A stretch of DNA of 64,000 nucleotides from Leifsonia aquatica (GTDB lineage Bacteria; Actinomycetota; Actinomycetes; Actinomycetales; Microbacteriaceae): assembly GCF_014190775.1 (NCBI RefSeq), contig NZ_JACHVP010000002.1:62001-126000 (forward strand). The letters are read 5' to 3'. Below are positions 60,690-64,000 of the stretch, piece after piece. Position numbers and translations under genes: made by a program. The notes under the pieces were generated by a model. The model saw only the letters and a program-made list of their open reading frames with translations. It was not told where the DNA came from and ran no database searches. The number at the start of each line of letters is the position of its first letter. The stretch's first letter is position 1.

Positions 60690-60977
60690 TCATTCGAACA
60701 TCTCCGCGACGGCCCGGTCGACTTCGCGATAGGTCGCCGCCGCCGCCTCCGCGATCGCAGCGGCCCCGGCGAGCTCCTCCACCTGCGTCCGGTGGTCCTG
60801 GTCCCAGCGCGTGTGAGCCGCGACGAACTCGTCCCTCGCGCCCCCCGACCACTTTCCCGCGACCCCCCGCGCCGCTTTCGCGAGCACCTCACGCCCCTCC
60901 GAGAGCCGCTCCCCGCGCCTCCGCAACTCCCCCGCCAGCTCCTCGAGCTTGTCCGGATCCACCCTGAACTCGGTCAT
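60690..60977 (-). CDS. WXG100-family protein (intact copy)
   Basis: 95 residues, the normal ESAT-6/WXG100 size, predicted to be a helical hairpin. The Trp-Ser-Gly turn is at 43-45 (GKWSGG), separating two amphipathic helices. Family members dimerise and are exported by type VII secretion or form N-terminal domains of its effectors. Its ATG overlaps the lipoprotein stop (ATGA). It is the last gene of the WXG/lipoprotein/hydrolase array. No ESX core gene is in the window. Confidence 0.8.
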   Translation of the reverse strand: MTEFRVDPDKLEELAGELRRRGERLSEGREVLAKAARGVAGKWSGGARDEFVAAHTRWDQDHRTQVEELAGAAAIAEAAAATYREVDRAVAEMFE

Positions 60978-61504
60978 GACGGGACCTGACCTTCGAGGTC
61001 CGGATCCGAGGGGACGCACCGGCTGTAACCCCGAAAATCTGCGTAGCCCTCACCGACCGTGAAAACTGCCCCGAATCCTTCCGGCGTGGTTCCAGTCAAG
61101 TAGGCCGGATACGAGACCACCTTGCGCGGCGGGGTGAGGGTGTCATCGGTCTCGACCTTCACCGAGTACCCGAGTCGATTCCACTCTTCCGCTACCTGCT
61201 CAGCGATCACCAGCACGGGTGCGTTCAACTCCCCGAAACGTTGGTTCACTCGCGACCAGCTGTCCATGTAGTCACTTCGGCCGCTTCGCGCGCACCCTCC
61301 CCACGAGGATTCGGCGTCGGACGACCCCCACCCCGGCCCGACGACAGCGAGAGTCTCCTCGTATAACTCTTCGACCTCAGCCTTCGCCCCATCTCGATCC
61401 ACGCTTCTTTCCCCTTCCTCAGCCGTCGAGCAGCCCGACAACACACCCATGAGGGCGGCCGTTCCAGCGACAGTCACGACGAGCCTGCGAAAACGTCTCG
61501 TCAT
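60974..61504 (-). CDS. Lipoprotein of the WXG100 array, copy 1
   Basis: 176 residues. A lipoprotein signal ends in a lipobox VLSGC (Cys25). The mature part contains KAEVEELYEETL, LTPPRKVVSYPAYLTGTTP and a C-terminal YSRCVPSDPDLEGQVPS. It is clearly a paralogue of the protein at 61707-62237, and both lie before a WXG100 gene. The function is unknown; being surface-tethered, it could bind or restrain the secreted partner. It overlaps the genes on both sides by four bases. Confidence 0.8.
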   Translation of the reverse strand: MTRRFRRLVVTVAGTAALMGVLSGCSTAEEGERSVDRDGAKAEVEELYEETLAVVGPGWGSSDAESSWGGCARSGRSDYMDSWSRVNQRFGELNAPVLVIAEQVAEEWNRLGYSVKVETDDTLTPPRKVVSYPAYLTGTTPEGFGAVFTVGEGYADFRGYSRCVPSDPDLEGQVPS

Positions 61505-61710
61505 CGTCCCCACTGCCGAAGCATTCCTTCTGCTCTCGCGCGCGATCGGTCGTCCGGTGTCCCGCCGCGCGCAAGCCAGTCCATTTCACCCGCGGCCCCG
61601 CGCGCCGCTTTCGCCAGCGCCTCGCGCCCCTCCGCGAGTCGTTCCCGTCGCCGCCACGACTCCCCCGCCAGCTCCTCGAGCTGCTCCGGATCCACTCTGA
61701 ACGCGGTCAT
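61501..61710 (-). pseudogene. Truncated WXG100 gene fused to a DUF1023-hydrolase tail
   Basis: 69 codons. The first 40 residues match the intact WXG100 at 60690-60977 (TxFRVDPxxLEELAGE, then EALAKAARGxAG). The WXG turn and second helix are then replaced by 29 residues that include GTPDDRS and end 13 residues later. The hydrolase at 62234 ends with the same GTPDDRS followed by 13 residues, and both stops overlap a lipoprotein ATG by four bases. This suggests an in-frame deletion joined WXG to a lost second hydrolase copy. It may still be translated. Confidence 0.7.
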
Positions 61711-62237
61711 GACGGGTCCTGACCTTCGAGGTCCGGATCGGAGGGGACACACCGGCTGCGTCCCCGGAAATCCGCGTAGCTTTCACCGATAGTGAACACG
61801 GCTCCGAACCCGTTCTCGGTCGTGCCTGTGAGGTAGGCCGGGAAAGAGACGACCTTGCGTGGCGGCGTGAGCGAGTCGTCCGACACGACCGTGACGGAAT
61901 ACCCCATTCGGTTCCAGCCTTCGGCTACCCGCTCCGCAATCTCCTGAGGAGAAGCATCGAGCGGTCCGAACCGTTGATTGAAGCGCGCCCAACTATCCAC
62001 CTCACGGGCGATACCGCTGCGCCCGCAGCCGCTCCATTCGGACTCTGAAGCGTTCCAGCCATCGCCCACGATTTCGAGCGTCTTCTCGTAGAGCCCCTCG
62101 ATCTCCGCCTTGGCCCTCTTATGTTGCATCTGGATTGTCTTCCCATCTATCGGGGATTGAGCGCACCCGGCCAATGCGGTGAACCCAACGACCGTGCAGA
62201 AGACGACGGTGAGGCTCTTCACGAGCACGTGACTCAT
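61707..62237 (-). CDS. Lipoprotein of the WXG100 array, copy 2
   Basis: 176 residues, the same length as copy 1. The lipobox ALAGC gives Cys25. The two proteins share ELYE/GLYE, NQRFG, LTPPRKVVS, FPAYLTGTT, GFGAVFT, YADFRG and RCVPSDPDLEGQ blocks, so they are recent paralogues. Its start overlaps the hydrolase stop and its stop overlaps the truncated WXG start, both by four bases. Confidence 0.8.
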   Translation of the reverse strand: MSHVLVKSLTVVFCTVVGFTALAGCAQSPIDGKTIQMQHKRAKAEIEGLYEKTLEIVGDGWNASESEWSGCGRSGIAREVDSWARFNQRFGPLDASPQEIAERVAEGWNRMGYSVTVVSDDSLTPPRKVVSFPAYLTGTTENGFGAVFTIGESYADFRGRSRCVPSDPDLEGQDPS

Positions 62238-64000
62238 CTCGTAAGCCCTCCGACCCGGTTACCGGTCCTCAGACCTGATCGATCGTCGGGCGTTCCCTCG
62301 TATTGCAGTTCCGCACCCTTGCCCATCGATGCCATGGCGGCGGCGTACTGCGCAGAGGTGAAGTCATTCAGGTAGCTGGGCTCCTTCTCCGAACCGAATG
62401 GTCCGTGACTCGAAACTCCTTTGAGGTCTCTGCCATTTATGGAGGTGCCTTCTGATGTGAATACTTTCGCGCCGTAGCCAGGATCAGTCGGATCGGTCCG
62501 TCCGGACACAAATTGCCCGAGTGGCGCCCACTCGTCAGCGACCGCCTGAGTTGCGTACACCTCTCCCAGCGGCACATTCAGCACCCCTGCCACCGGCGCC
62601 CCGCCGGAGACTCCAGCTGACCCGAGCATCACGACGTTTCCAGCACTGACTCCCGGGCGCGCCAGGGCGATGGCAGCGACATTCGTACCGTAGGAGTGCG
62701 CAACCACGGACAGCTGTGATGACTGCGCGCCCCAGCCTTCTATGCCCTGAAGACCCTGAAGCGTCCGGCCGAGCCGATCCGCGCCTGCTTCAGCCAATTC
62801 GTTGCGGATCACGCCAACGACATCGATCGCTCCCGGTGGGTCGTAGTCGAGCCACGCGATGACGGCGATCTTGGACGCATCCAGACCGGATGCCACAGCT
62901 TGTGCTTCGCGAAGCGCCCGTGCCGCATTGCCGTAGTTCCAGATGTCCCCCGCCGTCGTCCCCATGCCCGGCACGATCAGGCTGACGTGTTCGGCGTCGT
63001 CGATGAGGCCGGTGCTCAGCGCCACCTTGGTGTGCTCGCCCGGCTGATACGCGTAGAGCTGGTGCGGCGGGGCGCCCTCGGGGCCGCCGCCGAAAGCGCG
63101 GCGGATGGCCGTGAGTTCGGCGAGGAGCTTCTCGTCCTTCTCGATGAGGCGGTCGAAGAGCGCGCGGGCGCCGGGGGCGAGGCCATCCCTGGTCCGCCTC
63201 AGTCTCTCGAGCTCGTCTTCCAGGGCGGCGATGTCTTTCGTCAGCATCCGTTCGTTCACCTCGGAGCGGGTGCGGGCGTCGACGCCGTCGAGATTGCCGA
63301 CGACGCGCGGGATGCTGCGGGCGAGGCGGGAGCGGGTGGCGTCGTCGAGCTTCCGCCACCAGGCGGCGATGTGTCCCGGTCCGAGATCGAGAAGGCGGTC
63401 GAGCAGCTCGGGGTGCGCCGCAGCATACGCTTCGAGTTCGGAGCCGGACATGCGCCGGAGGTCGCGGAGCAACTTCTTCTCGCCGGCGTACGCCATGACC
63501 TCGGCGAGCCCCGCGGGCAGCGGAGCCGCCCCGAACACGGATCCCGTGAAGGCCCGGTCCGTGAGAGTGCGGAGCACCCGGGCGGTGTCACCGTCGCTCG
63601 CGGAGACCGCCGCGCGCGCATCCGTCAGGAGCGCTTCGGCGTTGTCCCGGATCGCCACTCCCGGATCGACGAAGACCGACAGCACCGGAAGCGCGAACGG
63701 CGCGCTCGCTGCACGTGCCTTCTCGTCGTCATGCTTGCGACGGGCGGCCGCGGTCGCCGTCTCGCCCCGCGACCACTCGGCGATCGCCCGGTCGGCGACG
63801 CGGAGTGCAGCAGCGATCTCCGCAGCGTGCGCGGAGAGTGCAGCGGCAGCCTCCCGATAGGCCGTCGCTGCCGCCGTCGTCCGGGTGAGGTGGCGCTCTC
63901 GCGCGGCGGTGAAGGCCTCCGCCGCAGCCCCTTCCCACACTTCCGGTACGGCTTTGCGATATTCCGCGGCGGCCGCGACAACTGATCGCGCCTGAACCTC
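62234..64000 (-). CDS. DUF1023-type alpha/beta hydrolase with N-terminal WXG-like domain, 5' end outside the window
   Basis: 588 residues are visible with no stop up to base 64000, so the start lies beyond the window; a GTG at 63940 is internal. The visible N-terminus is a long helical region with a VWEGAAAEAF turn at 21-30, matching a WXG domain. The C-terminal half is a DUF1023-like hydrolase with the nucleophile in VVAHSYGTN (Ser codon 62693-62695) and an oxyanion region VPGMGTTAGD. WXG-plus-hydrolase layouts are typical of type VII secretion substrates. Substrate unknown. Confidence 0.82.
   Translation of the reverse strand, partial: EVQARSVVAAAAEYRKAVPEVWEGAAAEAFTAARERHLTRTTAAATAYREAAAALSAHAAEIAAALRVADRAIAEWSRGETATAAARRKHDDEKARAASAPFALPVLSVFVDPGVAIRDNAEALLTDARAAVSASDGDTARVLRTLTDRAFTGSVFGAAPLPAGLAEVMAYAGEKKLLRDLRRMSGSELEAYAAAHPELLDRLLDLGPGHIAAWWRKLDDATRSRLARSIPRVVGNLDGVDARTRSEVNERMLTKDIAALEDELERLRRTRDGLAPGARALFDRLIEKDEKLLAELTAIRRAFGGGPEGAPPHQLYAYQPGEHTKVALSTGLIDDAEHVSLIVPGMGTTAGDIWNYGNAARALREAQAVASGLDASKIAVIAWLDYDPPGAIDVVGVIRNELAEAGADRLGRTLQGLQGIEGWGAQSSQLSVVAHSYGTNVAAIALARPGVSAGNVVMLGSAGVSGGAPVAGVLNVPLGEVYATQAVADEWAPLGQFVSGRTDPTDPGYGAKVFTSEGTSINGRDLKGVSSHGPFGSEKEPSYLNDFTSAQYAAAMASMGKGAELQYEGTPDDRSGLRTGNRVGGLTR

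Follow-up and report, generated by a model that had tools for sequence, protein, structure and literature searches.

A hydrolase, tandem lipoprotein and WXG100 cassette of Leifsonia aquatica as a candidate type VII effector-immunity system

At one end of a 64,000-nucleotide stretch of Leifsonia aquatica DNA (assembly GCF_014190775.1, contig NZ_JACHVP010000002.1, positions 62,001 to 126,000), which we call the window (G000:C2:62001-126000 in our numbering, G000 being its genome), the minus strand carries a cassette of five genes. They encode, in this order, a hydrolase, a lipoprotein (LP1), a truncated WXG protein, a second lipoprotein (LP2) and a full WXG100 protein, and neighbouring genes overlap by four bases at each of the four junctions (62234-62237, 61707-61710, 61501-61504, 60974-60977). 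We consider it fairly probable that this cassette is a type VII effector-immunity system consisting of a secreted enzyme and tandem immunity lipoproteins; the enzyme is probably antibacterial and lipase-like. An earlier note on this DNA had already regarded the array as an effector with immunity or partner genes, and the comparative linkage described below supports this view. The features listed there (lipoproteins of equal length, four-base overlaps, GTPDDRS endings) were all confirmed in the sequence.

The hydrolase gene lies only partly inside the window, and a likely GTG start 87 bases past the window end gives the full length listed in Table 1. We found that the full protein matches PF06259 Abhydrolase_8 (DUF1023; 83.4 bits, cut-off 20.5) and PF21725 T7SS_signal (65.2 bits, cut-off 27), the latter being an N-terminal targeting domain by which the enzyme classes as a putative substrate of a type VII secretion system (T7SS). 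This WXG-like domain carries the motif WEG. The putative catalytic Ser (AHSYG), Asp and His, a triad that we assigned ourselves, are invariant in all 14 enzymes aligned. No solved relative of the hydrolase was found at E <= 0.01, and the Tle3 domain of type VI secretion phospholipase effectors was matched below the Pfam cut-off by two of the ten enzymes scanned (those of L035 and L038). Enzymes of the Abhydrolase_8/DUF1023 type are common, with at least one in each of the 28 Leifsonia genomes searched. The few DUF1023 papers found, judged from titles and the beginnings of abstracts, did not concern type VII secretion.

Comparative evidence comes from the linkage between enzyme and lipoprotein. 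An Abhydrolase_8-type enzyme was found upstream of LP in all 21 genomes that carry LP (13 Leifsonia genomes and eight genomes from seven other genera), although in G036 the enzyme match is fragmented and an LP of G284 contains an internal stop. In all 21, the LP gene adjoins the toxin-domain end of the enzyme gene, as an immunity gene would. The number of LP copies per locus varies from one to four, and the second LP of G027 is merely a fragment. By eye, and with uncurated gene calls as the basis, about nine neighbourhoods can be told apart among the 13 Leifsonia loci.

The full WXG100 protein exceeds the cut-offs of both PF06013 (50.6 bits vs 27.3) and TIGR03930 (50.4 vs 44.85); its W-x-G turn reads WSG and it carries the motif YREVD. 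Motifs of the F/YxxxD/E type are required for export by T7SSa and, in the partner protein, by T7SSb, according to the part of the published account used here (PMC10730906). In line with the secretion route proposed for the array, EccC-type type VII secretion is encoded in the window genome, where EccC scored 806 bits and thus exceeded the TIGR03924 cut-off; its neighbours include an EccD that exceeds its Pfam score and a mycosin-like protease that stays below the NCBIfam cut-off. Among the 28 Leifsonia genomes, EccC passed the TIGR03924 cut-off in four, and weaker matches were present in all 28. As a separate observation, EssB, which marks a T7SSb-type core, was over its cut-off in 14 of these 28 genomes (L098 and L099 are examples); published accounts, as far as their portions used here go, tie T7SSb to Bacillota.

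In the mechanism that we propose, the hydrolase, through its N-terminal WXG-like domain (WEG), would pair with the sole full WXG100 protein, which has WSG and YxxxD/E, and would be exported by the ESX-type system, whose genes lie elsewhere in the genome. Once outside the cell, the alpha/beta hydrolase domain would cleave an ester in the envelope of neighbours, most likely in a membrane lipid, and LP1 and LP2, anchored to the producer's membrane on its outer side, would bind and block the enzyme. Retention of non-identical LP copies may give wider protection against enzyme variants. Unequal recombination would gain, shuffle and lose LP copies, carrying along pieces of hydrolase ends and WXG starts, and the 69-codon gene would be a by-product of such recombination.

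Table 1. Genes of the cassette (positions within the window)
Feature	Position	Strand	Remark
Hydrolase (Abhydrolase_8 core, T7SS_signal N-terminus)	62234..64000	minus	617 aa; continues past window end
Lipoprotein LP1, immunity-like	61707..62237	minus	176 aa, lipobox LAGC
Scrap gene, 69 codons	61501..61710	minus	WXG start ~61564-61710 + hydrolase tail ~61501-61566
Lipoprotein LP2, immunity-like	60974..61504	minus	176 aa, lipobox LSGC
Full WXG100 partner	60690..60977	minus	95 aa, WSG + YREVD (YxxxD/E)

A scan of L004 4400-8700 for promoters and terminators gave no signal above chance.

LP1 and LP2 have the same length, share 59% of their residues and are both encoded by intact reading frames. Aligning the two genes in G000, we found that the final stretch is 89% identical at the DNA level and that the first two 60-base stretches are only 35% and 41% identical. 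No family of Pfam, NCBIfam or PADLOC was matched over its cut-off, and matches of the LP profile in the PDB stayed at chance level. The lipoprotein family is thus nameless in Pfam and NCBIfam, in support of the earlier impression that it is undescribed. DUF576, the family of the staphylococcal lipoprotein TilA, for which we take Pfam to include a model, was not matched by LP1 or LP2 at E <= 1, nor by eight LP members at E <= 10. Two AlphaFold models for the LP fold had mean predicted local distance difference test (pLDDT) scores of 54.8 and 68.0, and the better one has the order helix-strand-helix-four strands. A role in anti-phage defence was set aside, as LP1, LP2 and two enzymes gave no PADLOC match.

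LP homologues occur in 13 of the 28 Leifsonia genomes (window genome included). Of 398 Microbacteriaceae genomes drawn for a wider search, with the best eight candidates of each scored, 14 yielded LP, namely six Leifsonia genomes and the eight genomes of other genera. Between the three closest species (G000, G011 and G002), the LPs have diverged more than the rest of the cassette when full-length proteins are compared: LP identity amounts to 50-59% (52-63% without the signal peptide), compared with 65-69% for the hydrolases and 64-74% for the WXG100 proteins, and neighbouring genes are 71-99% identical to those of G002. In the LP tree, nine of 17 inner branches were left open; a clade of 11 LPs spanning six genomes was recovered with a support of 97/97, and the two LPs of G000 cluster with a support of 83/88.

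The nature of the short WXG gene between the two lipoprotein genes required comparison with related species. No Pfam or NCBIfam family was matched by this gene and no W-x-G is present among its 69 residues, so it does not class as a WXG100 protein. As noted earlier, it shares with the hydrolase the ending GTPDDRS plus 13 residues, and the DNA of the motif agrees at 16 of 21 bases. It had been explained as a WXG start fused to a hydrolase tail in consequence of a duplication, and both elements of this explanation are supported by G011, a sister species with the same gene order, in which a scrap also lies between the two LP genes. There, the WXG start is frameshifted early and is followed by 34 hydrolase-like tail codons ending GTPDDRYGWRTEERIRQWGR; G002 has a single hydrolase-LP-WXG unit, the hydrolase of which ends SPDDRFGWRTEERIRKWGR. 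Over the last 66 bases, the G011 scrap agrees with the G002 hydrolase at 51 positions, and the G000 scrap agrees with the G011 scrap at 45 and with the G002 hydrolase at 40 (p = 5e-5 in each case, which is the floor of our codon-shuffle test with 20,000 shuffles). The corresponding values of the G000 scrap are 37 of 66 with the G011 hydrolase (p = 1e-4) and 32 of 66 with its own hydrolase (p = 0.004), the latter likeness being weak beyond the motif. The evidence inside the window alone is thin, and it is these matches across species that make the hydrolase-tail origin of the scrap firm.

That the tail is a hydrolase feature is seen from the 14 aligned enzymes: all of them have its R and seven have the exact GTPxDR, so the motif is not missing from orthologues. 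Together with the sister scrap, the invariant R rules out a chance match. The view that the short WXG gene is an old, independent functional family was likewise discarded, as the copy of the sister species is frameshifted and that of G000 holds no in-frame W-x-G. The first WXG copy is truncated, as previously stated, but it may retain slightly more than its N-terminal half, since WXG-like DNA seems to continue past the TGG of the motif, out of frame, to about base 147. This extension is supported by one of three WXG genes compared (that of G011, with p = 0.001, the lowest value that 1,000 shuffles allow) and is unsupported against the full WXG gene of the window (p = 0.47) and that of G002 (p = 0.52). 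The term decaying, which had been applied to the partner genes, suits the first WXG copy but not the lipoproteins, both frames of which are intact; of the full WXG100 gene, only a single copy is retained. As a side observation, one open frame in G011 (L027:9473-10204, 243 codons) extends, owing to the frameshift, from the first WXG start codon through LP2, and a fused WXG-LP2 product is therefore conceivable.

How the scrap arose is less clear than what it consists of. The junction differs between the two genomes that carry it: in G000, WXG sequence reaching perhaps base 147 is followed by about 66 tail bases, and in G011 the switch occurs at about base 100 with about 105 tail bases. Originally, an ancestral tandem triplet with a lost second hydrolase had been assumed. 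Screening 20 loci of 17-19 kb (13 Leifsonia, G036, G330, G102, G100, G171, G284 and G354; for G322 only 3 kb were available), we found one hydrolase region per locus and an additional C-terminal remnant in G330 only, which does not bear out the ancestral triplet. With no second intact hydrolase in these loci, loss of a full hydrolase is possible, yet unnecessary. That the whole hydrolase-LP-WXG triplet was duplicated and a deletion then joined the first WXG gene to the tail of the second hydrolase is in our view conceivable and short of probable; it requires two events, and it bears on the origin of the scrap, with the function read as proposed above. In its favour are the true hydrolase tail of the scrap and the differing junctions, so that more of either gene may have been present in an ancestral junction, as well as G330, a member of another genus. 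The locus of G330 holds four LP-like genes, the last of which is overlapped at its start by an open frame encoding about 96 residues from the end of a second hydrolase, with a match that sets in behind the catalytic Ser (among the four genes, one is above the profile threshold, the others are weaker or were assigned by eye, and the third was traced in part).

Short hydrolase ends also accompany LP copies without any such remnant. Two of the five LP-LP junctions examined contain a piece of hydrolase end before the second LP (43 bases in G014, 30 bases in G015), and three do not (two in G007, one in G017). These pieces speak against the duplicated triplet, and they indicate that one tandem duplication could yield the junction without a deletion. 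A single partial duplication, covering the hydrolase end, LP and the first part of WXG, would have given the fusion directly, with species-specific erosion later on; we hold this one-event scenario to be conceivable and likewise short of probable. It fits the WXG starts, which are 86% and 91% alike within a genome compared with 72-81% between genomes. This likeness, taken together with the 89% identical 3' stretch of the LP genes, indicates gene conversion across the LP end and the WXG start. Less easily reconciled with a partial duplication is that the scrap tail is nearer to the G002 tail or to the other scrap than to the adjacent hydrolase (14 v 4 sites, p = 0.03; 15 v 2, p = 0.002), so that the adjacent hydrolase end would need later replacement or divergence. 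Of seven site tests asking which hydrolase the scraps resemble most, these two gave p < 0.05 and the other five gave p-values of 0.06-0.52.

For the flanks of the cassette (the window up to 60690 and the genes past 64000), three taxa were compared with no outgroup, L027 and L028 being the counterparts. On one side, G000 and G011 share 86 sites (vs 59 and 47 for the other pairings), and on the other side G000 and G002 share 78 (vs 34 and 18). The affinity thus switches in a manner that resembles recombination close to the cassette. Such a switch would suit displacement, in which a divergent hydrolase end arrived together with LP1 in front of a resident unit of the G002 type, orphaning that unit's tail and LP2. 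The G011 scrap tail resembles the G002 hydrolase tail, as given above, and LP2 of G011 is 59.0% identical to the G002 LP compared with 49.7% for LP1. However, the two LPs of G000 cluster, although gene conversion at their 3' ends may explain this clustering, and three taxa without an outgroup cannot tell changed descent from changed rate. We hold displacement, too, to be conceivable and short of probable, with slightly lower odds than the two duplication scenarios.

The cassette type appears to vary with the secretion machinery. G000, G011 and G002, in which the cassette ends in a WXG100 gene, carry an EccC that passes the TIGR03924 cut-off and lack EssB. The reverse holds for the six genomes of the 11-LP clade: EssB is present, EccC does not pass the cut-off, and by eye no WXG100 gene follows their LPs. 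In G014 and G027, the enzyme-LP pair is part of a type VII locus and is separated by about 4 kb, measured between matches, from an EssC-like ATPase; EssB over the cut-off and YukD lie alongside, and the order is small helper, enzyme, lipoproteins. G016 has both EccC and EssB and carries no LP. It is tempting, though still somewhat less than probable, that one enzyme-LP toxin-immunity module shuttles between ESX-type systems (EccC, with a T7SS_signal/WXG domain and a WXG100 partner) and T7SSb-type systems (EssB, with another N-terminal domain and another helper). If so, the immunity lipoprotein and the hydrolase core would be constant and the export signal exchangeable. An LXG domain was matched below the cut-off by one of the ten enzymes scanned, which is one of the four scanned from genomes with an EssB machine.

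Several points weigh against the effector-immunity reading and its extension to two secretion types. Four of the 13 Leifsonia LP genomes (G003, G009, G012 and G006) have neither EssB nor EccC over the cut-off, and the enzyme of the window sits outside the T7SS locus of its own genome. The EssC-like frame of G027 has 1008 codons compared with 1699 in G014 and is perhaps broken, and the EsaA-like protein of G014 scored 118.9, slightly below the cut-off of 122. The association between cassette type and T7SS type is confounded by relatedness. In the best-aligned 133 columns, LP identity (60-68%) is little lower than that of the enzymes (65-70%), and the lipid target draws on the Tle3 similarities mentioned above. 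The support as a whole comes from sequence comparison. A non-toxin role, in which a T7SS-exported enzyme remodels envelope lipids and the LPs are its cofactors (docking or activating subunits), would also account for linkage and export signals, which suit any exported enzyme with a surface partner, but we consider it improbable, since patchy occurrence (13 of 28 genomes), chromosomal sites that differ by eye, varying LP number, orphan fragments and divergence would all be unusual in a housekeeping pair.

For the effector-immunity reading, the closest known system is TslA/TilA of Staphylococcus aureus, and the statements that follow on it are limited to the part of the account used here (PMC10730906). 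In that system, a lipase-type enzyme is exported by the T7SS and an immunity lipoprotein acts at the outer face, two roles that are predicted here; it also has several non-identical lipoprotein copies and small helical partners. Unlike the present enzyme, which has its targeting domain at the N-terminus, TslA has a C-terminal helical domain, and TilA belongs to DUF576 and is encoded upstream, whereas the present LP genes lie behind that of the enzyme and their products exceed the cut-off of no Pfam family. Membership in the TilA family, which the sequence comparison did not show, and TilA-like working are separate claims. Our best reading of the analysis is that the cassette may work like TslA/TilA, with lipoproteins of another family.

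The tspA/tsaI and esaD/esaG arrays, in the excerpt of PMC9484751 used here, resemble the cassette in their tandem immunity paralogues, in recombination among esaG copies and in 3' pieces of the toxin gene tspA within the tsaI array. They differ by their membrane-depolarising and nuclease toxins, their immunity proteins and their Bacillota hosts. The LXG toxin cassettes of T7SSb are similar to the G014 and G027 loci in combining a small helper, a toxin-like gene and immunity-like genes near EssB and an EssC-like protein (PMC10730906, in the same part). Here, however, the host is an actinomycete, the LXG match was confined to the single enzyme mentioned, and the enzyme of the window has T7SS_signal/WXG100 targeting instead. 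In the literature on T7SS lipase toxins, DUF1023, WXG100, Leifsonia and EssB, represented mostly by the beginnings of abstracts and including few subscription papers, the cassette was not described.

A linked and diverging family of surface lipoproteins offers a direct handle on the function of the common Abhydrolase_8/DUF1023 enzymes, and the scraps form a natural series illustrating how such arrays may expand and contract. The lipoprotein family also suggests that lipase-type antagonism with immunity lipoproteins may be a use of type VII secretion in actinomycetes, as it is in Staphylococcus.

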